From a virus, in the IMG/VR virus record IMGVR_UViG_3300042465_001064, positions 1 to 36,207 of that record: a stretch of DNA of 36,207 bases. One strand, 5' to 3'. Positions within the stretch are counted from its first letter, which is position 1, and the number at the start of each line of letters is the position of its first letter. The notes beneath the pieces are model-generated. The model ran no database searches. It was not told the origin of the DNA and was given only the letters and a program-made list of their open reading frames with translations. Positions 128 to 29,875 of the stretch are shown one piece after another. The position numbers and the translations under genes were made by a program.

Positions 128-131
128 CCAT
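1..131 (-). CDS. DUF6321-like small phage protein, 5' part (continues at the right end of the window)
   Basis: The ATG is at 131-129 and overlaps the TAA of terL by one base (TAATG). The reading frame leaves the window at base 1 and continues, on the circular genome, from 36080 down to 35954, giving 85 residues. It begins MAKKSVSLSVGRGEK and continues into a GAGLTAKGREKYNRETGSN stretch. This small, basic, Lys/Gly-rich protein is frequent next to terminase and portal genes in environmental phages. Its function is unknown. The TAATG join shows it is translated with terL. Confidence 0.8.
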   Translation of the reverse strand, partial: MAKKSVSLSVGRGEKLPVSKGAGLTAKGREKYNRETGSNLKAP

Positions 132-1657
132 TAAGACCCCATCCAAGAAGTTGTAATTCCAACGCTGCCGGCATAAGACCGGCGCTTAACAATCTCATTG
201 TACTCACGATGAGCCACCGGATACGCAAAAGTTACGCATATCGCGTCAGCCGCATCAGGCGAGGCCAAGCCTCTAGCCTTCATATCTTTTTTCGACTCTA
301 AGAAAATTGTACCCTTAGAGTCGGGCTTCATCATAGGCGAAATTAGATCGGTTTTAAGAAATCTGTCAAGTGGTATTGCAGCAGTTTTAAGCCAATCTTT
401 CATTGACCCCCACATTTCAGCCCGTTTATTGCCATACATGATGGGATTTTTAGACTTATTCCCAAAGTTAATGCCCTTGACCTTGTAGCGCTGCTCTTTC
501 AAGCGGTCGACAATACCGGCGCCCAAGCCGCCTTCGTCAATTACCACCAGCGCGGGCTTAAATTCCTCAATCGCCTCGATGATGTAGCCCACCACCGTCA
601 TGGTGTCGTCGCCTCTGTGCCTGTCAATGCGCACAATGTCGCGTCCTTGCCGGATAGCAATCACCGTTGCGTCAGCGCCAAACCGTGCAGGGTCAACGCC
701 GATCACAATCGGGGCGCTGGCGTCTTGGTATTTCTCACGTTTCATGGCCTCATCGACCAAATGGGCCGGTATGAACTGGTCGTCGCCCTCAGAGGGGAAC
801 ATGCCGTAGACCTCGACGTGCGCTTGGCTGGAATCTGGCCCATATTCATCAATAATGCCCTGATATACCTGTTTATCCGTGCCTTCGACAGTCCTGGCAT
901 CCACCACTTTGGTCGTCCAAAAGTTGCGTTTGCTGTTAAAAGTCTCGTAAAAGTAGCCTGTATTGCGGCGCGGATTGGAAAACGCCATCCAAAACCTGTT
1001 GGGCGTGTTTTCGGTAAAGAAACCAGCCGTCACCGCCCAGATTGAGTCGTCGATACCGGACGCTTCGTCAAATACCACCAACACGCCGTCAAAGTTGTGT
1101 ACGCCAGCGTACGCATCTGGGTTCTCAGCTGACCAAAGCCTGCCTTCTACACCCCAATAACGTGTGCCCTTCTTAAGATCACGCTCGACCAATTCGGTGA
1201 GCCACTTAGCCGGCATGACGCGGGTGGCTGACACCTCAAACCAGTGGCTGTTAATTGCCGTAGCCAGCCACTTGGTAATCTCGGCCCAAGTGACGCTGCG
1301 TAGCTGCGATTCTGAGTTAGCCGAAATGATGGTCGTTGAGCCAATCCTTGTGGACAGCATCCAGATCGTGATCCAACTGACTAAGGCCGACTTGCCAATA
1401 CCACGGCCAGAACTTACGGCGGTGCGCAAGGTGTCAAAGTCAATCTTGCCCTGGTTCTGCTTGATATGTTCGGCAATTTGGGTGAGTACTTCACGCTGCC
1501 ATTTGCGCGGGCCTTTGAAATGTTCAAGCGGCGTACCTTGTTGACCCCAAGGAAACGCAAACATTACAAACGCTAACGGGTTGTCCTTGATCGCTGGCGC
1601 CCACAGACGCGCCATTAACTCTTGTTCGTCTTCAGCGCTGTATATGGTCGATTGCAT
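131..1657 (-). CDS. terL: Terminase large subunit (packaging ATPase and nuclease)
   Basis: 508 residues, the usual size of a large terminase. It powers DNA translocation into the procapsid and cuts the concatemer. The N-terminal ATPase has Walker A GRGIGKS (residues 84-90) and Walker B LVVFDEA (about 193-199). The C-terminal RNase H-like nuclease shows its acidic residues in GVDPARFGAD (D322), VVIDEGG (D374) and SPDAADA (D468/D471). The start overlaps the end of terS by 26 bp, the normal small-then-large order. The strong upstream Shine-Dalgarno site expected of an independent gene is missing, so translational coupling to terS is likely. The gene is intact, and its TAA overlaps the next gene's ATG. 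Confidence 0.95.
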   Translation of the reverse strand: MQSTIYSAEDEQELMARLWAPAIKDNPLAFVMFAFPWGQQGTPLEHFKGPRKWQREVLTQIAEHIKQNQGKIDFDTLRTAVSSGRGIGKSALVSWITIWMLSTRIGSTTIISANSESQLRSVTWAEITKWLATAINSHWFEVSATRVMPAKWLTELVERDLKKGTRYWGVEGRLWSAENPDAYAGVHNFDGVLVVFDEASGIDDSIWAVTAGFFTENTPNRFWMAFSNPRRNTGYFYETFNSKRNFWTTKVVDARTVEGTDKQVYQGIIDEYGPDSSQAHVEVYGMFPSEGDDQFIPAHLVDEAMKREKYQDASAPIVIGVDPARFGADATVIAIRQGRDIVRIDRHRGDDTMTVVGYIIEAIEEFKPALVVIDEGGLGAGIVDRLKEQRYKVKGINFGNKSKNPIMYGNKRAEMWGSMKDWLKTAAIPLDRFLKTDLISPMMKPDSKGTIFLESKKDMKARGLASPDAADAICVTFAYPVAHREYNEIVKRRSYAGSVGITTSWMGS

Positions 1658-2072
1658 GTTGTACCGATGGTTCGATTATCTGGGCGTCTTCGATGGTTAG
1701 TGCGCGCTTCTGTGCCTCAGCCAGCGCGCCTGTGATGGATATGCGCTGATCCACTTCGACAGATATAGCTTGCTTGGCCACCCAGCCGTGCTGGTGTTTC
1801 AAGACTTCTAGCGCCATCTTGGCGTCACCCTCTAGGGCAGCCGCGCGCATGATGTTGGCCATTTCAATCTCGCCGTCGGCTTTGCCTTTTTGCGCAGCCA
1901 TTTCCACAACGGGGTCAAGTTGCGTAAGTTGTCGGTATTCGGCGGGGAGCATGCCAGCGGCCAGCGCTAAGGTATCGCCTTTGAGGCCAAGTTTGGCAGC
2001 GTCATACACCGCTTTCAAGCGTGACTCTGTCGCTTGCACGTTGCGCGGTGTAAATGGTATTGAATGGAACAT
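1632..2072 (-). CDS. terS: Terminase small subunit (probable)
   Basis: 146 residues directly upstream of and overlapping terL, where the DNA-recognition subunit of the packaging motor is normally found. The sequence is mostly helical with an acidic/alanine-rich middle, compatible with a ring-forming small terminase, but I see no diagnostic motif; the call rests on position and size. A good GGAG Shine-Dalgarno lies just before the ATG. It is the first gene of the long leftward late block, so a late promoter should lie in 2073-2200. TAGAAT (rc of 2103-2108) is a possible -10, but I see no convincing -35. Confidence 0.75.
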   Translation of the reverse strand: MFHSIPFTPRNVQATESRLKAVYDAAKLGLKGDTLALAAGMLPAEYRQLTQLDPVVEMAAQKGKADGEIEMANIMRAAALEGDAKMALEVLKHQHGWVAKQAISVEVDQRISITGALAEAQKRALTIEDAQIIEPSVQHAIDHIQR

Positions 2073-2209
2073 GTGTTCTCCATGCTGGTTGCACGTGGCG
2101 TCATTCTACACAATAAAAAAATTTTGTTCGTGACCCATTAGCGCCGGCGTTGGCCCTGTGCCGGCCCTCCCCCACCCCCCTCCGGCCGTCGGCCAAAAAA
2201 CTTGGTGAC

Positions 2210-2237
2210 TGTGGACAAGGTGGACAAGGTGGACAAC
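2210..2237 (+). repeat. Three head-to-tail 9-mers (GTGGACAA family)
   Basis: GTGGACAAG, GTGGACAAG and GTGGACAAC follow each other without a gap at 2211-2237. The first is preceded by T, making an exact TGTGGACAA at 2210-2218. The period is exactly 9 bp. Confidence 0.9.
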
Positions 2238-2251
2238 AGATTTTAAGTCGC

Positions 2252-2288
2252 ATACCCCAACCGGTAAGAGTGTGGACAATGTGGACAA
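2252..2288 (+). repeat. 37-bp direct repeat, copy 1 (carries two 9-mers)
   Basis: 2252-2288 and 2311-2347 match at 36 of 37 positions (59-bp offset). Each unit is ATACCCCAACCGGTA plus a short linker and two tandem TGTGGACAA boxes. The ATACCCCAA part occurs a third time inverted, as TTGGGGTAT at 2410-2418. Confidence 0.9.
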
Positions 2289-2310
2289 CAGTTTGCAAGT
2301 CGCGCACCCG

Positions 2311-2347
2311 ATACCCCAACCGGTAGGAGTGTGGACAATGTGGACAA
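2311..2347 (+). repeat. 37-bp direct repeat, copy 2 (carries two 9-mers)
   Basis: Second copy of the unit at 2252-2288. The only difference is TAGGAG in place of TAAGAG. The two TGTGGACAA boxes are at 2330-2338 and 2339-2347. Confidence 0.9.
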
Positions 2348-2359
2348 TGTCTTTTTAGG

Positions 2360-2488
2360 TTGTCCAACTTGTCCACAAGTTACGCACAGGGTGTGGATAA
2401 CAAACCCCTTGGGGTATCAGTTATGCACAGGCTTTGGTCTTATATAAGACTTGAATCTGTGGATAACCAGCACTTGCACTGTGGACAA
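2360..2488. promoter_or_regulatory. Mixed DnaA-box cluster with two perfect TTATCCACA boxes
   Basis: In order: TTGTCCAAC (2360-2368), TTGTCCACA (2369-2377), TTACGCACA (2380-2388), TGTGGATAA (2392-2400, perfect box on the minus strand), TTATGCACA (2421-2429, fits TTATNCACA), TGTGGATAA (2458-2466, perfect) and TGTGGACAA (2480-2488). Between them lie an ACCCC-TT-GGGGT inverted repeat (2405-2416) and the A/T-rich TTATATAAG (about 2440-2448). This is the part of the region that looks most like a bacterial oriC. Confidence 0.75.
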
Positions 2489-2547
2489 CTTTGAGCAAGG
2501 GGGTAGTGGCTTGGAGGGTCACTTTGACATCTGAGGGCTTCTAATCG

Positions 2548-2583
2548 CGTGGACATTTGTGGACAATGTGGACAATGTGGACG
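2548..2583 (+). repeat. Further 9-mer array in the origin region
   Basis: CGTGGACAT is followed by TGTGGACAA at 2558-2566 and 2567-2575 and TGTGGACGC at 2576, the last three head to tail with a 9-bp period. Confidence 0.85.
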
Positions 2584-2635
2584 CCCTTTTTAAATTGGTG
2601 GCGGACGAGGTGTCAACGTGCCGTTACAGTCTTAC

Positions 2636-2690
2636 TAGGTATTAACCCTTATATCAAAATCTTTAACTTTAGTTGCTAGAAAATGATTGT
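2636..2690. other. A/T-rich stretch, candidate DNA-unwinding element
   Basis: The stretch from the TAGGTATTAACC sequence to AAAATGATTG is the longest A/T-rich segment of the region. It lies between the forward-oriented 9-mers (up to 2583) and the inverted ones (from 2687), where a duplex-opening element would be expected. No repeated 13-mers are evident. Confidence 0.4.
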
Positions 2691-2794
2691 CCACATTGTC
2701 CACACTATTCTGCAAGCCGCGCCTTTGCTACGTTTGCGCGTGGGTCAAAATTCAATCTATACAGTGTCCACCGATAGTCCACCCATTGTCCACA
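2687..2794 (-). repeat. Inverted 9-mer group at the right edge of the origin region
   Basis: TTGTCCACA occurs at 2687-2695 and 2696-2704 (tandem) and at 2786-2794. Weaker relatives are GTGTCCACC (2764-2772) and TAGTCCACC (2775-2783). All have the opposite orientation to the 9-mers left of 2583, so the region is roughly symmetric. Confidence 0.85.
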
Positions 2795-2839
2795 CACAAA
2801 CTTTTTTTCAACTGCGCGGTTTATTGCAAAGAAATCCTT

Positions 2840-2871
2840 TACAATAATTCATCGACACAAAAACAGTCGAT
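2840..2871 (+). promoter_or_regulatory. Candidate early promoter -10 and operator-like inverted repeat
   Basis: TACAAT at 2840-2845 is a good -10 hexamer, but there is no strong -35 at the normal distance (TTGCAA at 2824 is too close). Just downstream ATCGAC (2851-2856) and GTCGAT (2866-2871) form a 6-bp inverted repeat with a 9-nt spacer. It lies in the leader of the first early gene and could be an operator or a 5' hairpin. This is a weak call. Confidence 0.35.
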
Positions 2872-2895
2872 AAAACCTAACCTAAAGGAAACACT

Positions 2896-3090
2896 ATGCA
2901 AACAGCACTCATTAAAGACTTGCCAAAAGGCGAATTTTTCAAGCGCAAGGCCGACTCTGTGAAGGTTTATCAGCGCGACGAATACAACCGCGAAGCGAAG
3001 AAATACGACTGCGCCGACATGCTCGACGTGTGGGGCAACGGCCTCCAGTTGAAGGGCACGACTGTTGTTTATATTGGTTTTGACTATTAA
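2896..3090 (+). CDS. Small early protein, 64 aa, function unknown
   Basis: First gene of the rightward early operon, with AAAGGA placed before the ATG. The protein starts with a basic, Phe-containing stretch (LPKGEFFKRK) and ends with GTTVVYIGFDY. This layout, a short beta-rich protein with a K/R-rich front and a VYxGFxY end, recurs in small early proteins of other phages as I know them, without an assigned function. It is probably an early host-interaction or regulatory protein by position only. Confidence 0.8.
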   Translation: MQTALIKDLPKGEFFKRKADSVKVYQRDEYNREAKKYDCADMLDVWGNGLQLKGTTVVYIGFDY

Positions 3091-3101
3091 GGGGCCACCT
3101 A

Positions 3102-3449
3102 ATGAAAACTGAAGCTATATTTTTTGCCCAAAAAACAAGCCGTAATTGGACAAACCGCGACGTTGCCCGCTTTCATTATTTCAACGAAGGCCACGGCCTG
3201 AACGCCCAAAAAAGGGTCGTTGATCTTGAGATTGACAAGCTAGTCGAAGACGGCCTGTGCAAGTCAGGCGCGATCATTGCCTATGGTGGCCTGAACTATT
3301 TCTACACCGACATTCTTAGAAAATTAACTACGCAAAAACGCGTTAATTCTATTGAACTAAGCGTTTGCTTAGAAGGCCTGCAAAGAGATATTGAAAAAGC
3401 GAAGGCTTTTATTGTCGAAACAAGTAGCGCTCAAACGGAGGCCGTATGA
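3102..3449 (+). CDS. Early hypothetical protein, 115 aa, possible winged-helix fold
   Basis: Starts 11 bp after the previous stop. Residues 15-60 (NWTNRDVARFHYFNEG and a following helix with VVDLEIDKLVEDGL) have the rhythm of a small winged-helix domain: helix, helix, then GAIIAYGGLNYFY as a possible wing. A charged C-terminal helix follows. I do not recognise a family, and a DNA-binding role is only a guess. Its TGA overlaps the next ATG (ATGA). Confidence 0.7.
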   Translation: MKTEAIFFAQKTSRNWTNRDVARFHYFNEGHGLNAQKRVVDLEIDKLVEDGLCKSGAIIAYGGLNYFYTDILRKLTTQKRVNSIELSVCLEGLQRDIEKAKAFIVETSSAQTEAV

Positions 3450-3607
3450 CTAAAGGCGAGATTGACTTCATCAAAACGATTAACTGGATTGAAGAAAACT
3501 TAAAAACTGAATTAAGAAAAGGAACGATTGAGGACACATGGCAGCGCTTGCTTGAGACTCAGATTGAACTTAGAAAAGCCCTCAAAGATTTAAACGATTC
3601 ATATTAA
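3446..3607 (+). CDS. Early hypothetical protein, 53 aa, helical
   Basis: ATGA overlap with the gene before it. It encodes a short, highly charged helical peptide beginning MTKGEIDFIKTINWIEENLK and ending ALKDLNDSY, consistent with a coiled coil or helical hairpin. Function unknown. Support is the overlap with its neighbour and the continuous spacing pattern of the operon. Confidence 0.6.
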   Translation: MTKGEIDFIKTINWIEENLKTELRKGTIEDTWQRLLETQIELRKALKDLNDSY

Positions 3608-3618
3608 GGAGAAACAAA

Positions 3619-3813
3619 ATGATAAAAGAAACACAAATAGCACATGAGTGCATCGCTATGAGCCGTGAGTGCAATAGCAGTTGGGAGATTTTGGAATATG
3701 TAAGGGGCGAGGGCTACCCTTACAAAATGGCCGTGAACATTGTCACCCGCGCTTTGCGACTGGATGACGAAGAAATCTTCGAGATGCAAGACCGCTATAA
3801 CGACTGCATCTAA
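3619..3813 (+). CDS. Early hypothetical protein, 64 aa
   Basis: A strong AAGGAGA Shine-Dalgarno precedes the ATG. The protein is acidic and mostly helical; the segment SSWEILEYVRGEGYPYKMAV followed by NIVTRALRLDDEEI looks like a compact helical domain. I do not recognise a family. Confidence 0.75.
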   Translation: MIKETQIAHECIAMSRECNSSWEILEYVRGEGYPYKMAVNIVTRALRLDDEEIFEMQDRYNDCI

Positions 3814-3823
3814 GGGGCAAACC

Positions 3824-4078
3824 ATGACTTACAAATTCAACATTAAATTGCACCCATGGGGCGAAAGCCCCGAGCATGGCAACGTCGAGATCGACGAGTC
3901 GGCCATGTATGGCGCTTGGGAATATAAAAACGGCATGGAGGGCGGTGGCCTATGGTTTGAACGCCTCCAAGATGGCCGGCTTGACCTTGTGGACTATGAC
4001 GGGGCGTTTGCGTTGCCTAAGGCCGTCGTCACCGCTTTGCGCGCCTCGGGCGTATCAGTTGAGGAGATTTTTGAATGA
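3824..4078 (+). CDS. Early hypothetical protein, 84 aa, beta-rich
   Basis: The start was chosen at ATG 3824, which follows AAGGGGC and leaves an 11-bp gap to the previous gene; longer readings would run into that gene. The sequence alternates polar and aromatic residues (GAWEYKNGMEGGGLWFERL) and ends in a helical AVVTALRASGVSVEEIFE. Function unknown. Its TGA overlaps the next ATG. Confidence 0.75.
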   Translation: MTYKFNIKLHPWGESPEHGNVEIDESAMYGAWEYKNGMEGGGLWFERLQDGRLDLVDYDGAFALPKAVVTALRASGVSVEEIFE

Positions 4079-4212
4079 ACCGCCACACTTTGCACTATAT
4101 CGACCTGAACCCTGAGCCGGTTCAGGAACCCTCAGACGGCCTAATCATCGCGGGGGCGGTTGCCCTTGTCGTTGCTTTGGCCTGTGTGATTCTTTTTGCT
4201 TTTTCTTTTTAA
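4075..4212 (+). CDS. Single-pass membrane micropeptide, 45 aa
   Basis: ATGA overlap with the upstream gene. A polar N-terminal 22 residues (rich in Pro and Glu) is followed by a continuous hydrophobic segment, residues 23-45 (LIIAGAVALVVALACVILFA), that runs to the C-terminus. It is therefore probably an inner-membrane protein of unknown role, made early. Confidence 0.65.
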   Translation: MNRHTLHYIDLNPEPVQEPSDGLIIAGAVALVVALACVILFAFSF

Positions 4213-4221
4213 GGACTGACC

Positions 4222-4554
4222 ATGACTGATCTTTTTCAAAATTTTCAAGGCGCGGACATTGACCGCCTTGTCTTATGTATTCAAGCAGCGCGCGCAGCCG
4301 GTCTAAGTATTGACAAATACACCTCGGCCGGTATCAATGACAACTCGGGCAACGTATGGTTAGCGTCTGAGGACTGGACAGGCTGCGTTTATTGTTCCAT
4401 CGGTTTTGACGTCCAGTGGAACTTTTCGTGCATGAACTGCGGCGAAGAATACGACTTCGACAGCTACACCGAAATGGTGGAATTTGAGACGGCTCAATAT
4501 GAGAAACATGACAGCGAGTGCGACGCCTGCGCAACTGAGACGGAGGCAGCATGA
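4222..4554 (+). CDS. Early protein with CxxC zinc-ribbon-like pairs, 110 aa
   Basis: The protein has three CxxC pairs: C55/C58, C70/C73 and C100/C103, plus H96. C70-x2-C73 and C100-x2-C103 could form a zinc ribbon. The N-terminal half contains a helix (DIDRLVLCIQAARAAGLSID). Zinc ribbons in small phage proteins often act in transcription takeover, but nothing here proves that. The stop overlaps the next ATG. Confidence 0.75.
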   Translation: MTDLFQNFQGADIDRLVLCIQAARAAGLSIDKYTSAGINDNSGNVWLASEDWTGCVYCSIGFDVQWNFSCMNCGEEYDFDSYTEMVEFETAQYEKHDSECDACATETEAA

Positions 4555-4721
4555 CCAAAGATCAAATTCACGCGCTAAAAATGGCGTTGTTTCTTGCTCA
4601 ATATTTTGTCGAGGAACATTATGGCGATTTTATGGACAGTGAGCAGGCGAAAACAGACAACGAGCGCGTCATATTGGCGCGGGCGATCTTGCAAGAATTG
4701 GAGGCGACATGCACGACATAA
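4551..4721 (+). CDS. Early hypothetical protein, 56 aa
   Basis: ATGA overlap with the zinc-ribbon-like gene; GGAGGC lies just upstream as Shine-Dalgarno. A short amphipathic helical protein (KMALFLAQYFVEEHYGDFMD, then ERVILARAILQELEAT). The 3' end overlaps the next gene by 13 bp. Function unknown. Confidence 0.6.
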   Translation: MTKDQIHALKMALFLAQYFVEEHYGDFMDSEQAKTDNERVILARAILQELEATCTT

Positions 4722-4861
4722 AAGAACAACTGGACATCGTGTGGGCGGCCTTGGAAGCCTACCGCGCCGATCTAATACCCGAGGGTGATGAGCAATTTGA
4801 CGAAATCTGGAATGACATCTGCACCGCGATGGCGGTCATTGAGGAGGACTTGCAACCATGA
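4709..4861 (+). CDS. Early hypothetical protein, 50 aa, acidic
   Basis: Starts inside the end of the previous gene, with GGAGG upstream. The acidic helical sequence begins MHDIKEQLDIVWAALEAYR and ends in AVIEEDLQP. Its TGA overlaps the next ATG. A small, strongly acidic early phage protein could be a DNA-mimic type inhibitor, but this is speculative. Confidence 0.6.
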   Translation: MHDIKEQLDIVWAALEAYRADLIPEGDEQFDEIWNDICTAMAVIEEDLQP

Positions 4862-5073
4862 CCCATTACGACAAAACCCGCGTGACCTTCCATTATGGGA
4901 ACACGTTCACGGCCGAGGGCATAGCAGCCGAGCCGTTCGCCACGCTCACAATCGACAGCCTTGTTGGGCGTGAACTAATCGACACAATCTGCGCGCTTAT
5001 CCGCGCCCATGTCAATGAAACGCACATGGATTTCTGCAATATTAAATTATCAACCGAAAATTGGGACACCTAA
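4858..5073 (+). CDS. Early hypothetical protein, 71 aa
   Basis: ATGA overlap with the upstream gene, and GGAGG at a good distance. Beta-rich N-terminus (TRVTFHYGNTFTAEG) followed by a helix (LIDTICALIRAHVNETH). No family recognised. Confidence 0.7.
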   Translation: MTHYDKTRVTFHYGNTFTAEGIAAEPFATLTIDSLVGRELIDTICALIRAHVNETHMDFCNIKLSTENWDT

Positions 5074-5074
5074 A

Positions 5075-5485
5075 ATGATTGAATTCACACACCACGGCAT
5101 AACCGTAAAATGCAAACCCGAAAACGCGATGCAATACCGCGCGGCCATGGACAAACCGCCAAAGGCTAAAGCGGCCAACGAAAAGCGCGATTATCCCAAG
5201 TGGACGCCGGCCATGACGACCGCCGATTATTTGCAGGCATACATTAGGTTAAACGACCGCCGCCGCATGCTTGAATGTGGCCACACATGCGCCAACTATC
5301 ACGGCACGGCCACACTGTACGACGGCGCGTTTCCCGAGGTTTTGGAAGAACCAGACGCGGATTATGTGCCAACGGTTAAGGCGCGCAAAATCACGCCTAA
5401 GCAGGCCATTGTGCAAGCCCTTGACGCTCTCAAGGCGGGCGATATTGACACGGCTCAATGTATCTTGACGGAGGCGCTTAAATGA
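5075..5485 (+). CDS. Early hypothetical protein with a Cys/His cluster, 136 aa
   Basis: The start at ATG 5075 leaves a 1-bp gap to the upstream stop; a longer reading in this frame would overlap that gene. A basic N-terminal half (PPKAKAANEKRDYPKW) leads to C68-G-H70-T-C72 with H76, a possible metal site. The C-terminal part, ITPKQAIVQALDALKAGDID, is helical. Function unknown. The stop overlaps the next ATG. Confidence 0.75.
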   Translation: MIEFTHHGITVKCKPENAMQYRAAMDKPPKAKAANEKRDYPKWTPAMTTADYLQAYIRLNDRRRMLECGHTCANYHGTATLYDGAFPEVLEEPDADYVPTVKARKITPKQAIVQALDALKAGDIDTAQCILTEALK

Positions 5486-5673
5486 ACGACGTCATGCTTT
5501 ACGCCATTTCACCCTTCCGGCCACTGACTTACGCCGACCATTATTACGTTGACCTTGGTTATCGCTACGAACTAGGCAAGGCCGAAGATTACGAATACAA
5601 ACAAGCGCAGGCCGAGGGGCCACAAGCCCGCAGATTGCTCAGTCGAGGCGCGATGGAGGCAATGATGCGATGA
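5482..5673 (+). CDS. Early hypothetical protein, 63 aa
   Basis: ATGA overlap and GGAGG upstream. Tyr-rich (eight Tyr), for example YADHYYVDLGYRYELG, with a basic tail. No family recognised. Its TGA overlaps the following micropeptide start. Confidence 0.7.
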   Translation: MNDVMLYAISPFRPLTYADHYYVDLGYRYELGKAEDYEYKQAQAEGPQARRLLSRGAMEAMMR

Positions 5674-5748: not shown

Positions 5749-5776
5749 AAGCCCCCATCACTGGGGGCTTTTTTTT
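5749..5776 (+). terminator. Rho-independent terminator of the early operon
   Basis: AAGCCCCC (5749-5756), a 6-nt loop, then GGGGGCTT (5763-5770) continuing into a run of T to 5776. On the + strand this is a textbook terminator. The facing primase-helicase gene ends at 5775 inside the T-run. On the minus strand the hairpin is followed only by TTATGAGG, so it stops leftward transcripts less well. Confidence 0.9.
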
Positions 5777-8078
5777 ACTTCACCAAACGCACAGACAAGG
5801 GCGCGGGCACATCTTCAACCAGTCGCCTCAATTCTGACTTGCTCACATCGCGCATGTCAGGCGCGCAGAAAATATGTTTCTTAGAATCAAACTCACGCGA
5901 TTTTAATCGACCACAGTCAACCCATCCTGCCTCCTTCAGTGCATGCAACAAGGCGGGTTGAGGCACTTTCACACCACTAGGGGCTGCCCCCGCAAGGCGG
6001 TCACATAGTGCATGGAAAGGCGATGCCACCACGCCTTTAGAAAACTCGCCCATGCGGTTGCGCATAAGTTCGACAAGGTAACTTTCTGCCATGCTCATTC
6101 CATGCTCGACTAGATTCATTTTGAACTCGGTCATCATTGGAGGCGCGCCCGCATTGAACGCGGTCACATCACGGGTGGCAAGCCAGTCACCAATAGATGC
6201 AAACCCGCCCGACTTATACCACTTCCACATCTTCTCAGCAGATTGGGGTGTCATGCGCGGGGCATGCGACCAAACGCAAAACCATCTGCGATCCTGAGAG
6301 TCCAAACTAATTGGAACTGGGTCATTGGAAAATGCCAGAACGAAAACCCTGTTTGCCATTTGATAGGGGTGCAAGCCCTTGCGGTTCACTGTCAACATCT
6401 CAGGCGGGGCTGCGATGATTGGCTTTAATTTATTGGCCAAGGCGCGGCGTTCTTTTGCGTCAGGCTCTTTCAATTCATTCAAGATCAAGATTTCGGATTC
6501 AAGGGCGTAGCCAAATTGGGACGACATGGTGTCGTTGTCCAAGAGGCCGCGATTCTTGAGGTGTTCACCGCAAACTGCCCAGATGAACGGCGCCCACATG
6601 GTGTCCTTGCCTGATCCTTGATCACCGCCATGAAGCACGGCGTGGTTGATCTTGACCTCTGGGTGTTGCACCTTGAACGCCATCACGTTAAAGATGTGTT
6701 CCAACTCATCAGGATCAGGCACAAGCGTTTTGCAATGCTCAAGCCAAGGTGTTATGTCCCCTTCGCTAACTGGTGGCCTAGCATCGCGCCAACGATTGCC
6801 ATACAGGTCGCCATCACGGGCGACAATGACTGACTCGCCTGCGGCATAGGTGATGCCCACCAGTGCCTTCGCGCCATGCTTTTGGCGGTTCTCATCAAAA
6901 CAAATTGACGCCTCAACCTTGGGGTTCTTGCCATGGATGGACTTGCAAGAAATATGGCGAAACAAAGCATTGAAAGTACTGCGCGACACTTCGCGTCTGT
7001 CTTGCATGTCAAAATAAGACTCATCGTCTTGGATGTATGCAAAGCGCTCATACCACTGCGACTTCTCAACACGACCAAGTTCTTTTCGCTCAACCTCAGC
7101 GATCACGGCTGCGGCGTCATCTGTGAACATGTCGGACGGCGTCAGTTTGGAAAGCGCAGCGTCCATGGCCAAGGCAAGTAACTCATCCCGAAGACCGGGG
7201 GCATGCTTGGGGCCGCCATTGTCAGCGACCCATTTTAAAAACGCATTAGAGTCAAATTCAATGCAATGGCTATGCAGGCAACGATAGGCGCGGTTCGCCG
7301 GCATATAACGGCCTTCGGGGTTGCCATCGGTATGCTCGGCGTTGTTGGGGCAGATCACGCCAGCCCAGCCTTCATTGTTGGGGCGCGACAGTAGCGCGCC
7401 GTGGCCACTAAGCCATGCCATGACATCGTCGGCGCCGTCATCTGACAATCGGATCGGCCGCACACCGACCGACTCGGCAGGGGCCGGCGTCACGTTTAAG
7501 GCGGTGCAGATTTGGTCTAGGGTAAAGTCACGCGTTGGGTGAAACTCCACCAGCTTGGCTGCAAAGTTATCGCGGCCGGGCTTTAAGTTGATCGAGCCAG
7601 GCAGGCGAAAGTTGCGCACGGCGTTGACCGCGCCCTTGTCGGTATAACCCGCATCGGCGATTGCTTTGATGGCGGCGGCAAAATCGGCCTTGGTGGGCTG
7701 CTCGACAAAAGCATAGCCCCATTGAAAAGAACCCGGCGACGTTTCTATTTTCCAAGTCGGCTCAAGCGATGGGATGTTAGGCGCCTTCTCAGGGTCGCCC
7801 ACGTCATCTAACACCATGACAAGCACATACTCGCAATGAGCCACGCTGGCGCTTGGATAGCCGTCTTTGAAGCGGTCGACAATGAAGCTGGCCGTGTTGC
7901 CATAAATTGCCCATTCGGGCTTGATCTTGGCGGTCGGCAACATAGCCGGCCATGTGCATTTGATCGCGCCGTCTGGGAAGAATTGCATCTGCCCATCTTT
8001 CAATTGGGGCTTCTGACGCACGATTAGCGCAGTCTCGCCTTCGGGAGCCAAGGACGTTAAAAATTCAAGAAAGTTCAT
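5775..8078 (-). CDS. Replicative primase-helicase (RepB-like primase plus DUF5906/D5-like helicase)
   Basis: 767 residues, combining priming and unwinding at the phage fork. The N-terminal part (about 80-190) resembles RepB/AEP-type primases: LVMVLDDVGD (acidic pair D91/D92) and FRLPGSINLKPG (157-168), a signature of that group. A zinc-binding motif follows: C243, H249, C267, H271 (ending CLHSHC). The C-terminal SF3-type AAA+ helicase has Walker A GGDQGSGKD (484-492), a Walker B-like ILILNEL (530-536) and a sensor/arginine region FSNDPVPISLDSQDRRW (583-599). It starts in an ATGA overlap with the polymerase. As last gene of the leftward replication operon it works with that polymerase. Confidence 0.85.
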   Translation of the reverse strand: MNFLEFLTSLAPEGETALIVRQKPQLKDGQMQFFPDGAIKCTWPAMLPTAKIKPEWAIYGNTASFIVDRFKDGYPSASVAHCEYVLVMVLDDVGDPEKAPNIPSLEPTWKIETSPGSFQWGYAFVEQPTKADFAAAIKAIADAGYTDKGAVNAVRNFRLPGSINLKPGRDNFAAKLVEFHPTRDFTLDQICTALNVTPAPAESVGVRPIRLSDDGADDVMAWLSGHGALLSRPNNEGWAGVICPNNAEHTDGNPEGRYMPANRAYRCLHSHCIEFDSNAFLKWVADNGGPKHAPGLRDELLALAMDAALSKLTPSDMFTDDAAAVIAEVERKELGRVEKSQWYERFAYIQDDESYFDMQDRREVSRSTFNALFRHISCKSIHGKNPKVEASICFDENRQKHGAKALVGITYAAGESVIVARDGDLYGNRWRDARPPVSEGDITPWLEHCKTLVPDPDELEHIFNVMAFKVQHPEVKINHAVLHGGDQGSGKDTMWAPFIWAVCGEHLKNRGLLDNDTMSSQFGYALESEILILNELKEPDAKERRALANKLKPIIAAPPEMLTVNRKGLHPYQMANRVFVLAFSNDPVPISLDSQDRRWFCVWSHAPRMTPQSAEKMWKWYKSGGFASIGDWLATRDVTAFNAGAPPMMTEFKMNLVEHGMSMAESYLVELMRNRMGEFSKGVVASPFHALCDRLAGAAPSGVKVPQPALLHALKEAGWVDCGRLKSREFDSKKHIFCAPDMRDVSKSELRRLVEDVPAPLSVRLVK

Positions 8079-9976
8079 TTGCCATACCTTTTCATAGTTT
8101 CAACTTCAGCGTTCAAGGGCAGGCCATCTGCCCATGCTGGCGCTGTACACATCACACGTTTTAGATTTTGTTCTGCATCGGGATCAGAGGTTTCAAGTAC
8201 GATTTCATCATGCACATGCAGCACAACGTCATCGAGTTGGCGCAGGGCGTGGCGAAGCAAATCGTTGGCCACGGCCTGGGTTACATTTTCACATGCCAAG
8301 CCTTTCCAAAGGCGGGCGCGTGGCCATTCTTTTGCATCTTGCGCAGGCTTCCATGCCGCTTTGGCATAACTGACACCCTCAGGTTCTAATTTTGCATAGG
8401 GGTAGCACAAAATGCGTCCTGAAGGTAGGGCATACCATAGGTGCTGGCCATCATATAAATATGTTATACGGCCGGCCTTAAATTCACGCCCTTTGTTGCG
8501 CATGGCGCGGGTATAAGATTCTTCTAGCGCCGACCAATAAGGAACGCTCCAAGCATTAGCGCGGCGCCAGCTATCCACCATGCGTTTAGCCACATGTTCT
8601 GGAAGGCTAATTCCATAAGCGCGGCCCATGGCAGCAAAAGCGCCGACGCCACCAGCAAAGCCACAGGCAAGTTCCTGAACTTTTCCGATCTGGCGCTGGT
8701 CTTTAGTGACGTCGGCCACTCGGACGCTGAAGGTGGCGGCTGCATTGACTTTATAAACGTCTTCCCCAGTGCGGAATAGTTCCAGCTTGTCTTGACCTCG
8801 GCCGGAGAGCCAGGGATTGACTCGGGCTTCAATGGCTGCCCAATCGGCGACGACAAGGTGCTTGCCGACGGCGGGGATGATTGCAGGCCGGAGCATTCCT
8901 TTAAGAACATCGGTAACGCGCTTTCCATACCTTGGCACGATTGCATGGCCTCGCACCATTGCGTGACGGACATCGTCGGGTTCTTCAGCGCACTTTCGGG
9001 TGAAGTTATGCACTTGCGCTCCGTATGAAGAAGCGCGGCCTGTTGCTGAACCGCCTGCAAATACGAACGCTCCTCGGACTCGCTGATCTTCGTCGTCTGC
9101 CAAAGCTGCAAGTCTGCTGAATTTTGCGACGGAGGATGCCCAAAGGTCGTCTGCGCATTGAATGACTTCTTGAACATCGGCTGGGACTTCATCGGGGTTC
9201 TCCATCAAAAGTAAATTGGCTCGGACTGTTTTGTCAATCGAATACTTGCCGTCTTTCTCCATTAGCTTCTTAGCCTCTGGCCCGACACGCTCAAGTACCC
9301 ATTCACGCATGCGCGGCGACCGGACGCTGGCAATAGCGCCGCCCGTAACTTCTTGCACGATTTGCTCAATCTCAGTTAGTTCTTCTGAGGCAAACTTAAC
9401 GGCGGCGTTGCATAACGGCACGTCGACCAACACGCCGCGATCGTTGATGCGTTCGTTAACGTGGTAGTCCAATAATTCTTCGTCAGATAGGTCGCGCATG
9501 GCCTTGCTGATTGCCCGCATGGCGCGCACGTCTTGCTCACAATACTGGATCATCTCGGCCATAAGTTCTGGCGAGTCTTTGAACGGTGGCACACACATCA
9601 AGCGGATCAGTTGCGCGCCTCTGTGATCTTTCTTCATGGACGCGCCAGCGAAGCGGCCAACGTCCTCCAGACTGCCAGGCGCGCAGTTGGCGCGGGCTTG
9701 TGTTGCAGTGCAGTAAAACTGCTCCAACTTAAAATTTATTTGTAAAACATACCAAAAGATCAAGCGCTCGAACGCGGCGTTGTGCGCCCTGATCTGGCCG
9801 GTGTAGTTGCGCACACGGGCGGGGAAAGGTTGGCTAGGCAGCCACGTCACCACGTCTTCGTCGTCGAACGCATACGACATGCACAGCACGTCGGTGCTGG
9901 CGTCTTGCGCGTAGTTATACACGCCTTTGGCGCGTAGGTCGCATTCACTGCGGGTTTCAAAATCTAACCAAAGCAT
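8075..9976 (-). CDS. Family A DNA polymerase with 3'-5' exonuclease
   Basis: 633 residues from ATG 9976. AAAGGAG (9990-9984) sits 7 nt before this ATG but only 1 nt before the alternative ATG at 9982, so 9976 is preferred. The exonuclease domain is intact: LDFET (D5, E7), HNAAFE (N66) and YCEQD (Y145, D149). Polymerase motif A is DWAAIEAR (D378, E383), motif B is R428-x3-K432-x7-F440, and motif C is HDE (589-591). The residue equivalent to E. coli Phe762, K432+4, is Leu436. There is no 5'-3' exonuclease domain. It overlaps the primase-helicase start. Confidence 0.93.
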   Translation of the reverse strand: MLWLDFETRSECDLRAKGVYNYAQDASTDVLCMSYAFDDEDVVTWLPSQPFPARVRNYTGQIRAHNAAFERLIFWYVLQINFKLEQFYCTATQARANCAPGSLEDVGRFAGASMKKDHRGAQLIRLMCVPPFKDSPELMAEMIQYCEQDVRAMRAISKAMRDLSDEELLDYHVNERINDRGVLVDVPLCNAAVKFASEELTEIEQIVQEVTGGAIASVRSPRMREWVLERVGPEAKKLMEKDGKYSIDKTVRANLLLMENPDEVPADVQEVIQCADDLWASSVAKFSRLAALADDEDQRVRGAFVFAGGSATGRASSYGAQVHNFTRKCAEEPDDVRHAMVRGHAIVPRYGKRVTDVLKGMLRPAIIPAVGKHLVVADWAAIEARVNPWLSGRGQDKLELFRTGEDVYKVNAAATFSVRVADVTKDQRQIGKVQELACGFAGGVGAFAAMGRAYGISLPEHVAKRMVDSWRRANAWSVPYWSALEESYTRAMRNKGREFKAGRITYLYDGQHLWYALPSGRILCYPYAKLEPEGVSYAKAAWKPAQDAKEWPRARLWKGLACENVTQAVANDLLRHALRQLDDVVLHVHDEIVLETSDPDAEQNLKRVMCTAPAWADGLPLNAEVETMKRYGK

Positions 9977-9992
9977 TGGCATCTCCTTTCCA

Positions 9993-14175: not shown

Positions 14176-14808
14176 ATGAGTTATATCGTGGCATCGTTGC
14201 CGCCCATGAAATGCTTTGTAAAGCGCGAGTTTTTATACAACGACCACAAGGGGCACGGCGAGTTAGAGCCGGCCATCTGGGTCAGCCTTAAAGCCTTGCG
14301 TGGCCAAGTGTTCCGCATTGAATCGCTGTTGCCGGCCTACGGCGCGCTGTATGACAAGCTGCCGATCCACGCCTACGTCTGGCATGCTGACGCCGGTAAC
14401 TTGCCTGTTGACACTTTGCAACTGTGGGACTGTATGGGCTACCGATTTACAATCATTGAAAAAATTGGCCTGCGCAATCTTGGCGTAAAGTTCTTGGGCA
14501 AAGACCGTGAGTGGCACTTTGGGCGCTATCTGTTTACGGTGGACTTCTGCGCCGAGGGCATGGACTTGGACACGGGCTTTACCGAGCAGGCCGAGGAACA
14601 CAAGTCTTTTAACTGGATTGCTTTGGACAACGGCCAGTTTGCCTGCCAGCCGAACAACCGATGCTTGTGGTACGACCAGAGCCTGATCCCCGCTGAGACA
14701 AAGTTTCCCGACTTCCAAGCTGCGCAAAGATTGTGGACGGTTGACGGCACACGCAAGTGGTCAGCCGGCGATGATTGGTTCTACGATATTAAGGCGAGAA
14801 ATGACTAA
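14176..14808 (+). CDS. Conserved phage protein of unknown function, 210 aa
   Basis: AAGGAAA precedes the ATG. Rich in aromatic residues and tryptophan, with regularly spaced beta segments (YRFTIIEKIGL, DREWHFGRYLFTVDF, HKSFNWIALDNGQFACQPNN). It contains no catalytic motif I recognise. The fold looks beta-sandwich-like. It belongs to the nuclease-helicase operon and overlaps the next gene by 8 bp. Confidence 0.78.
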   Translation: MSYIVASLPPMKCFVKREFLYNDHKGHGELEPAIWVSLKALRGQVFRIESLLPAYGALYDKLPIHAYVWHADAGNLPVDTLQLWDCMGYRFTIIEKIGLRNLGVKFLGKDREWHFGRYLFTVDFCAEGMDLDTGFTEQAEEHKSFNWIALDNGQFACQPNNRCLWYDQSLIPAETKFPDFQAAQRLWTVDGTRKWSAGDDWFYDIKARND

Positions 14809-15001: not shown

Positions 15002-15424
15002 GACTTTGCCGCCAGCCATGCAATACTTCAAAAGTTCTTCGGCAGCGCCCGCCATGTCGCCCCGAAGAACTTTCTGGCGCATGGTTGACCTTTGGAGCGT
15101 GCCAAGGCCTACATTAAAAGAAAATGATACGAGAGCGTCAAACTGTCCTTGAGTAAGAGGCACAGGACAATAAGTAGCCACGCCTTTCTCAAACCGAGCA
15201 AGATCGGCCCTAAGAATCGCATTTACTTCGTCTTTTGAAAACGATCGGTTATCTTCTGGATGAAGCGCGTAACCGCCTCTTTGATCAATTGGCATCTTGC
15301 CTTGATTTGGGTAAAGAACATGGCCTACTCCTATTGTCCACAGCTTGGCTGGGCACTGGTATGGTTTAAATCGAACACCCTCATGGTGTTTGATCATCTC
15401 AATGGTTTTGGGGCTGACGTTCAT
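14948..15424 (-). CDS. Endolysin, T4/P22-type lysozyme (GH24)
   Basis: 158 residues. It cleaves the glycan strand of peptidoglycan at the end of infection. The GH24 triad follows the E-x8-C-x5-T spacing: E15, C24 and T30 within HHEGVRFKPYQCPAKLWTIG, followed by GVGH. C24 replaces the Asp of T4 lysozyme, as in many phage relatives. The C-terminal RGLQNRRIDERALF is also typical. There is no signal peptide or SAR segment, so it needs the holin to reach the wall. The start overlaps the holin stop (ATGA). Confidence 0.92.
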   Translation of the reverse strand: MNVSPKTIEMIKHHEGVRFKPYQCPAKLWTIGVGHVLYPNQGKMPIDQRGGYALHPEDNRSFSKDEVNAILRADLARFEKGVATYCPVPLTQGQFDALVSFSFNVGLGTLQRSTMRQKVLRGDMAGAAEELLKYCMAGGKVLRGLQNRRIDERALFLT

Positions 15425-28911: not shown

Positions 28912-29162
28912 ACGGTTTCCAATTGTTTTATGCTTGCAGAGATCGTGGCCGTTGACGTGTCGCGGTCAATGCTTAAGTATCCCTTACATACGATGTTGTA
29001 GTCAACCCCGTTAACGTCTTTTTCGCTTTTGATTGGGGTGGTAATGTCAAGGTTCTTAAACAAAAACTCTTTACCGTTTTCAAAAACGCGCCAAACGTGA
29101 TCCATTGAACCGCGCCCAGCTTGGCCTCGGCTTTTGTTGAATCTGATCTGGTACGTGTTCAT
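28908..29162 (-). CDS. Small phage protein, 84 aa
   Basis: ATG 29162 overlaps the oxygenase stop (ATGA), favoured over a start 10 codons upstream that would lie inside the oxygenase gene. NTYQIRFNKSRGQAGRGSMD then HVWRVFENGKEFLFKNLDI and DYNIVCKGYLSIDRDTSTA: beta-rich. Function unknown; always translated with the oxygenase here. The stop overlaps the fibre gene start. Confidence 0.75.
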   Translation of the reverse strand: MNTYQIRFNKSRGQAGRGSMDHVWRVFENGKEFLFKNLDITTPIKSEKDVNGVDYNIVCKGYLSIDRDTSTATISASIKQLETV

Positions 29163-29875
29163 ACAATTTCTGCGGCTGGTGGGATAGCACAAGCCTGTGG
29201 TTGGTGAATCACTGTAAGGTTGAAATGCACAAACTTAATAGGCAGATCAGCAGCGTGTCGTGTAAACGAGTGCATCAGCCATGAGTTTGCAAAGATCATC
29301 ATGCCGGGTTTGGGCGCGAAGTTAATCATCTTACTGGCGGGTGTCGCCATACCCATGTCTTGCTCGGGCAAGTCAATCTGCACTTTGGCCGCACGGGGGT
29401 CGTGGAACACCACGCGAGAACAATCCTCTGGAGTCTCAAGGAAATAAAAGCCCACAATCTGTGAGCCAAACCCGTGAACGTGCGCGTCCATTGCAGAGTG
29501 CTTGTAATGCTCTTGTGTCCACATCTCAGTAAACTGCACCGCTTTGTCTTGCATGGCGTAGCCCTGCTCATTGAGAATGTTCCAAGCAGTTGCGCCTACA
29601 AACTCAGAGAAGCCCGCCATGCGAGAGTCGCCAAAGTAGTTACCCGTCATGTAGAGTGGGTAGATTTCGTTAAGCGATTGCGTCTTGCGGGCTTCAGCCA
29701 AGCCTTCTTCAGAAACCGTATTGACCACATCTAAAAAGTCAGGGCGCTCAATAATGTAGATTGGGCAAGGGAAATGGTGTGCAACTTGAAGTTGCGTGTT
29801 TAACACAACTTGAGCCACTGACTCAGCGGCTTTGCATACTTTTTGTTTTGACTTCTTAGTGGCAGTCTTGGCCAT
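29159..29875 (-). CDS. 2-oxoglutarate/Fe(II)-dependent oxygenase (putative)
   Basis: 238 residues with the double-stranded beta-helix pattern of putative 2OG-Fe(II) oxygenases of the PF13759 type: AHVHGFGSQIVGFYFLETPE (H132/H134), SRVVFHDPRA (D159), then KPGMMIFANSWLMHSFTRH (H202) and KFVHFNLTV with K214 in the usual cosubstrate position. The enzyme would hydroxylate a protein side chain, base or small molecule with Fe(II) and 2-oxoglutarate. The basic N-terminus MAKTATKKSKQK is unstructured. It lies among tail fibre genes, so a virion protein may be the substrate (inference). AAGGAGAG precedes the ATG. Confidence 0.8.
   Translation of the reverse strand: MAKTATKKSKQKVCKAAESVAQVVLNTQLQVAHHFPCPIYIIERPDFLDVVNTVSEEGLAEARKTQSLNEIYPLYMTGNYFGDSRMAGFSEFVGATAWNILNEQGYAMQDKAVQFTEMWTQEHYKHSAMDAHVHGFGSQIVGFYFLETPEDCSRVVFHDPRAAKVQIDLPEQDMGMATPASKMINFAPKPGMMIFANSWLMHSFTRHAADLPIKFVHFNLTVIHQPQACAIPPAAEIV

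Follow-up and report, generated by a model that had tools for sequence, protein, structure and literature searches.

A DnaA-box-like 9-mer array as the probable replication origin of a freshwater-type phage and its own primase-helicase as the proposed reader

A dense array of DnaA-box-like 9-mers in a freshwater-type phage is, judging from sequence comparisons, very probably an iteron replication origin that is read by the phage's own primase-helicase, with the specificity of the protein exchanged together with the array; its likeness to the DnaA box would then be accidental. In the best reading, this reader resembles the SaPI-Rep/P4-alpha-like primase-helicases. The anatomy of the array, the switching of its motif among relatives and the covariation of that motif with the protein all come directly out of computation. 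Perfect DnaA boxes in a phage are naturally taken to involve DnaA, a misreading that this case corrects: they need not.

Anatomy of the array

The window, meaning the whole 36,207-base virus record, opens with terminase genes at its left end, followed by an early operon and by the primase-helicase and family-A polymerase genes (Table 1). It also holds P22-like head genes (portal, coat and head closure) and two possible auxiliary metabolic genes, one 2OG-Fe(II) oxygenase-like (29159-29875) and one in a PHROG labelled ferredoxin (14176-14808). Genome matches for a host were scattered metagenome bins and uninformative, and no named phage matched the region in a blastn search.

Table 1. Features of the window discussed in the text
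Feature	Position	Strand	Remarks
Large terminase subunit	131..1657	-	
Small terminase-like gene (by position)	1632..2072	-	no covariation with the array motif
Gene-free region with the putative origin array	2073..2895		between small-terminase-like gene (-) and early operon (+)
Iteron array, allele TTGTCCACA	2210..2794		12 exact copies plus variants
59-bp imperfect tandem repeats	2220..2347		with further iteron pairs (2271-2288, 2330-2347, minus)
Secondary element, GTTAYSCACA boxes	2366-2467 (boxes 2380..2466)		TTACGCACA 2380+, TTATCCACA 2392-, TTATGCACA 2421+, TTATCCACA 2458-
Inner tandem iteron pair, left arm	2558..2575	-	2 x TTGTCCACA, 9-bp period
111-bp core between inverted pairs	2576..2686		AT-rich tract (TTTTGATATAAGGGTTAATACC on minus strand)
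Inner tandem iteron pair, right arm	2687..2704	+	
Early operon	2896..5673	+	small genes of unknown function; block-replaced with array in near relatives
Primase-helicase, proposed origin-binding initiator	5775..8078	-	767 aa
Predicted C-terminal winged-helix domain	5814..6131	-	residues about 650-755
Wing loop	5880..5903	-	residues 726-733 (KSREFDSK); K726, R728 and D731 track bases 6, 8 and 4/2
DNA polymerase family A	8075..9982	-	no covariation with the array motif

The sequence-only reading had counted 12 exact copies of TTGTCCACA, two of TTATCCACA and one of TTATGCACA in the gene-free region, and our recount agrees. The exact TTGTCCACA copies lie at 2210, 2271, 2280, 2330, 2339, 2480, 2558 and 2567 on the minus strand and at 2369, 2687, 2696 and 2786 on the plus strand; near matches include TTGTCCACC at 2219 and 2228 as well as the TTACGCACA box. 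Copies had also been described as touching one another with a 9-bp period, and we detected two such arrays (2211-2236 and 2549-2582). A comparison with the rest of the window and with shuffled sequence bears out the density: TTRTCCACA occurs 15 times against 0.67 expected window-wide, with 14 of the 15 in the gene-free stretch and a single stray copy at 15334, while shuffled sequences held 3 at most and none of 100 reached 15.

To place this array among its relatives, we used 371 loci with a related primase, calling a 9-mer cluster where at least 3 copies were present. By this measure 253 loci were positive, compared to 13 of 335 reversed controls; about a third were lost, 82 with no clear 9-mer cluster and 36 with too little flank. 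Because motifs were sought in the form TNNYYNANA, unusual alleles may have been missed. Two inverted tandem iteron pairs around an AT-rich core, as in the window, recur at 125 of the 253 loci, and 124 of these 125 share one orientation. The spacing of the pairs is typically about 80-120 bp, and the lowest 40-bp GC content at the loci has a median of about 0.2. Such repeated iterons around an AT-rich core are what marks the origins of D5/SF3-type initiators. The core at 2576..2686 is likely a DNA unwinding element, and inverted pairs with a melting core form the layout expected for loading a helicase ring on both sides. GC skew showed no switch at the array, and a promoter scan stayed at chance level.

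Alleles of the array among relatives

Relatives whose terminase is 84-99% identical carry an array at the same site that is built from other 9-mers, namely TGACCCAAA, TGAC[CT]CACA, TTGCCCACA, TTGCCTACA, TTGTCCATA or TGACCTACA, and wider relatives have TAGCCAACA, TAGCCGACA, TAGCCTAGA and more. Loci of allele A (27) average 1.2 copies of TTATCCACA and 9.3 of TTGTCCACA; the 21 loci of allele B together have no TTATCCACA and 2 copies of TTGTCCACA, and the 20 of allele C have neither. Boxes of the TTATNCACA type are found at 0 of the 21 allele B loci and only 3 times in the 20 allele C loci. The near relative L199 matches the window at 99% in the large terminase, 97% in the small terminase and 98% in the polymerase, and differs from it in a single block (2187-5512) that contains both array and early operon, and in having a divergent primase C-terminus. 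This block was also seen swapped as one piece between phages otherwise about 90% identical. Most likely, the boxes of the window represent a single version of a phage origin repeat that comes in about a dozen interchangeable forms.

These relatives bear directly on the idea that host DnaA binds the array and makes it a DnaA-dependent phage origin. Although TTATCCACA and TTATGCACA are canonical DnaA boxes, and the GTTAYSCACA boxes keep a fixed arrangement among near relatives, alleles B and C lack the TTGTCCACA array while their other genes are nearly the same, and the motif follows wing residues of a phage protein (below). DnaA boxes are thus lost in close relatives that keep the gene order, which goes against the earlier reading. 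Since near-identical phages carry non-DnaA 9-mers, the reader shared by all alleles cannot be a host protein like DnaA; we regard a host-DnaA origin as very unlikely, and the main boxes are most likely not host DnaA sites. Of the earlier proposal, the origin itself is upheld as the probable function, and the assignment of the main boxes to host DnaA is not. A datA-like trap that starves the host of DnaA, the other role proposed at first sight, would explain the high density of DnaA-like boxes. It is scarcely credible, however, given that near-identical phages replace every box, that the motif tracks residues of the phage primase-helicase and that fixed inverted pairs around an AT-rich core resemble an origin.

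The secondary element is a separate matter. It is common to 12 near relatives including the window, all of one subclade, with its boxes in a fixed arrangement, and some of these boxes have a G at base 5, outside the iteron pattern. The four GTTAYSCACA boxes may be true DnaA sites or variant iterons. In a mixed origin, the primase-helicase would read the TTGTCCACA iterons and 2380-2466 would add true host DnaA sites in this subclade, in keeping with the conservation of the boxes and their base-5 G. Other TTGTCCACA phages lack the element, however, as do alleles B and C, and it is therefore dispensable in the family; we consider a mixed origin rather unlikely. The boxes surround a AACCCCTTGGGGT palindrome.

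Other repeats occur at the edges of the family. Phages L058, L059, L061, L064, L066 and others, with a large terminase 84-86% identical, carry a different repeat, TGTACCGAA; no match to the window primase was found in the records checked for L058, L059, L056 and L066, which therefore seem to have a different replication module. Inverted GTTAGTG...CACTAAC hairpin arrays form a second repeat type beside the iterons in L075 (9180-9400), L080 and L264. Among unrelated viruses, the 10 pattern-scan loci without any family gene hold only 2-3 copies of TTGTCCACA.

Covariation of the motif with the primase-helicase

Among close relatives, primase identity is 0.916 between phages of the same allele class and 0.768 between classes, and this correlation is confined to the second half of the protein. 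The corresponding values are 0.874 and 0.872 for the small terminase, 0.940 and 0.937 for the large terminase, 0.921 and 0.920 for the polymerase, and 0.912 and 0.920 for the protein at the SSB position. On a tree of the last 150 primase residues, two class changes suffice, the fewest that three classes allow, compared to 22.4 after shuffling, and this number stands with the wing excluded. On the trees of the polymerase and the terminases, by contrast, allele type is scattered at random (14 changes against 14.9 shuffled for the polymerase, 16 against 17.0 for the large and 23 against 22.6 for the small terminase). We rejected the polymerase, the SSB-position protein and the small terminase as covarying partners on these grounds.

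The small terminase result also argues against a pac/cos packaging site recognised by that protein. The array does adjoin the small-terminase-like gene, but its motif fails to covary with the protein as such a site calls for, and L199 has another motif despite its 97% identical small terminase, leaving a packaging site exceedingly improbable. A role as operator sites for a regulator of early-operon transcription, such as early protein e10, would suit the overlap with the divergent promoter region and the strong class difference of e10 itself (0.741 within, 0.302 between classes). Closer to the array than e10, early genes are mixed across classes (e9, 0.538 versus 0.498), so physical linkage alone is an insufficient explanation for the covariation with the primase-helicase. 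A recognisable e10 is missing from most TTGTCCACA loci, however, and we rejected it as the partner although it is class-linked; with residue-level covariation pointing to the primase wing, an operator array is highly doubtful. Primase binding may regulate transcription as a side role.

The primase-helicase contains a DUF5906 helicase domain (Pfam, 1e-12) and a weak RepB_primase match at its N-terminus; a DUF5906/D5-type helicase encoded by the element itself is a hallmark of the self-loading D5/SF3-type initiators of the SaPI Rep, P4 alpha and Cch2 kind. The top fold match of the helicase part is NrS-1 6k9c (Foldseek, 2.9e-12). In a profile search against PDB sequences, NrS-1 was the sole match (E 1.7e-11), with none to the P4 origin-binding domain. 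Residues 638-767 are modeled as a winged helix with a pLDDT of about 95 at the wing, and the modeled loop 726-733, between strands 720-725 and 734-738, holds K726, R728 and D731. Fold matches of this domain are generic winged helices, RFX5 among them (Z up to 6.3), and neither the P4 origin-binding domain nor RFX1 is established as a specific match. RFX1-type wing recognition has been noted for D5 (PMC9611036).

An unbiased scan for motif-linked residues, covering all 635 variable columns of the primase in 96 representatives, put D731 at the top for bases 2 and 4; K726 led for base 6 and R728 for base 8, while no wing column leads for bases 3 and 5. Across 238 aligned loci, base 8 is C in 180 of the 183 that have R728 and another base in 54 of the 55 that have a different residue, where G or A accompanies A8, T or V accompanies G8, and S accompanies A8 or T8. 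K726 occurs with C6 at 119 of 121 loci and S726 with G6 at 3 of 3, whereas A726 is seen with C, T, A and G, and residue 726 alone is insufficient for base 6. With D731, T4 is found at 79 of 98 loci, compared to 1 of 136 for residues other than D or E. Phylogenetically independent pairs, taken from different branches of a tree that omits the primase C-terminus, agree 6:0, about 10:0 and 12:0.5.

Predictions from the near clade extend to other loci. The distant L260, an independent lineage, pairs ASGDYP with TGACCTAAA, as predicted, and further contigs with TGACCCAAA have A726 and non-R728 in 33 of 34 scored wings, again as predicted; L506, a split gene judged by eye, adds one agreement. The exception is L510, in which a class-C wing stands beside a TGACCCAAA array (1055-1328, primase fragment), possibly a recent recombinant or else a chimeric contig. 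A scan for the rare allele TTGTCCATA yielded no new locus with a readable wing, and KSRDHD phages have mixed TTGCCCACA and TTGTCCACA arrays.

The sequence-only reading had allowed that the repeats might be iterons for an unknown phage protein. This idea gains from the tracking of the motif by three primase-helicase residues, and we can now propose the protein. The array would be the phage's replication origin, and the C-terminal winged helix of the primase-helicase would bind its 9-bp iterons, with the wing loop reading base 8 through R728, base 6 through K726 and bases 4 and 2 through D731. The inverted tandem pairs would load helicase at both flanks of the AT-rich core, and likeness to the DnaA box would be an accident of the TTGTCCACA allele. 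Specificity would switch by exchange of the array together with the C-terminal half of the protein, with point changes in the wing as an occasional second route. From the comparisons we infer that the protein physically binds the array, that the strands open and helicase is loaded there, and that the array is active as an origin. Counted against this reading are the roughly 3 kb between array and primase gene, the L510 mismatch, the ambiguity of A726, the mixed KSRDHD arrays, the class difference of e10 and the steady GC skew. We hold with about even confidence that the wing is a modular three-residue code (bases 2/4, 6 and 8) and that orthogonal origin-initiator pairs circulate by recombination, plausibly escaping origin-directed parasites or competing relatives.

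Relation to known initiators

The closest parallels share a working principle with the window protein, and we keep homology of the C-terminal domains apart from that claim. In P4 alpha, origin recognition resides in the C-terminal domain. No sequence match of the window protein to that origin-binding domain was seen, and its own primase is a weak RepB_primase match. P4 alpha unites primase, helicase and origin recognition in one protein (Ziegelin 1993, as cited in PMC9611036). SaPI Rep and SCCmec Cch2 bind origin iterons through a C-terminal domain, and for Cch2 the isolated domain was shown to bind direct repeats (PMC7581432, citing Ubeda 2007). The likeness lies in a D5-type initiator helicase with short origin iterons, to which the window protein would bind by analogy. 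In contrast to SaPI Rep and Cch2, its origin lies about 3 kb from the gene, the 9-mers reach a dozen copies, a primase is fused to the helicase, and one phage family holds many specificities with a readable wing code. The NrS-1 primase-polymerase (6k9c) has the nearest solved helicase region; it recognises TTTGGTTA/GTGG through its primase part, and the portions of PMC8718748 and PMC9611036 available to us describe no iteron array or wing code for it.

The RepA/ori modules of PLE, satellites in Vibrio, swap repeatedly while the rest of RepA is conserved, and the DNA-binding domain covaries with the iterons, an origin-directed nuclease being the likely driver (PMC8263062). PLE RepA differs from the window protein as a RepA_N initiator with an N-terminal binding domain, ~30-bp iterons and two specificities rather than a dozen. 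New here are how many specificities one phage family contains, the wing code and the precise DnaA-box likeness of one allele. The hundreds of loci amount to a natural experiment that lets initiator specificity be followed one residue at a time, and they supply candidate orthogonal origin-initiator pairs for testing. They also raise the question of why close phages keep swapping origin specificity, for which PLE/ICP1 is a precedent, as origin-directed nucleases can drive such swapping there (PMC8263062).

The array also resembles DnaA/oriC in having TTATCCACA-like 9-mers near an AT-rich tract, but non-DnaA alleles replace the boxes in near relatives, and the window encodes no DnaA domain IV. 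A relative with a 78% identical large terminase, L276 (MW202483), encodes a 98-aa helix-turn-helix protein resembling DnaA domain IV (7083-7379) and has a palindromic TGTTTACATAAACA array at the site of the putative origin.
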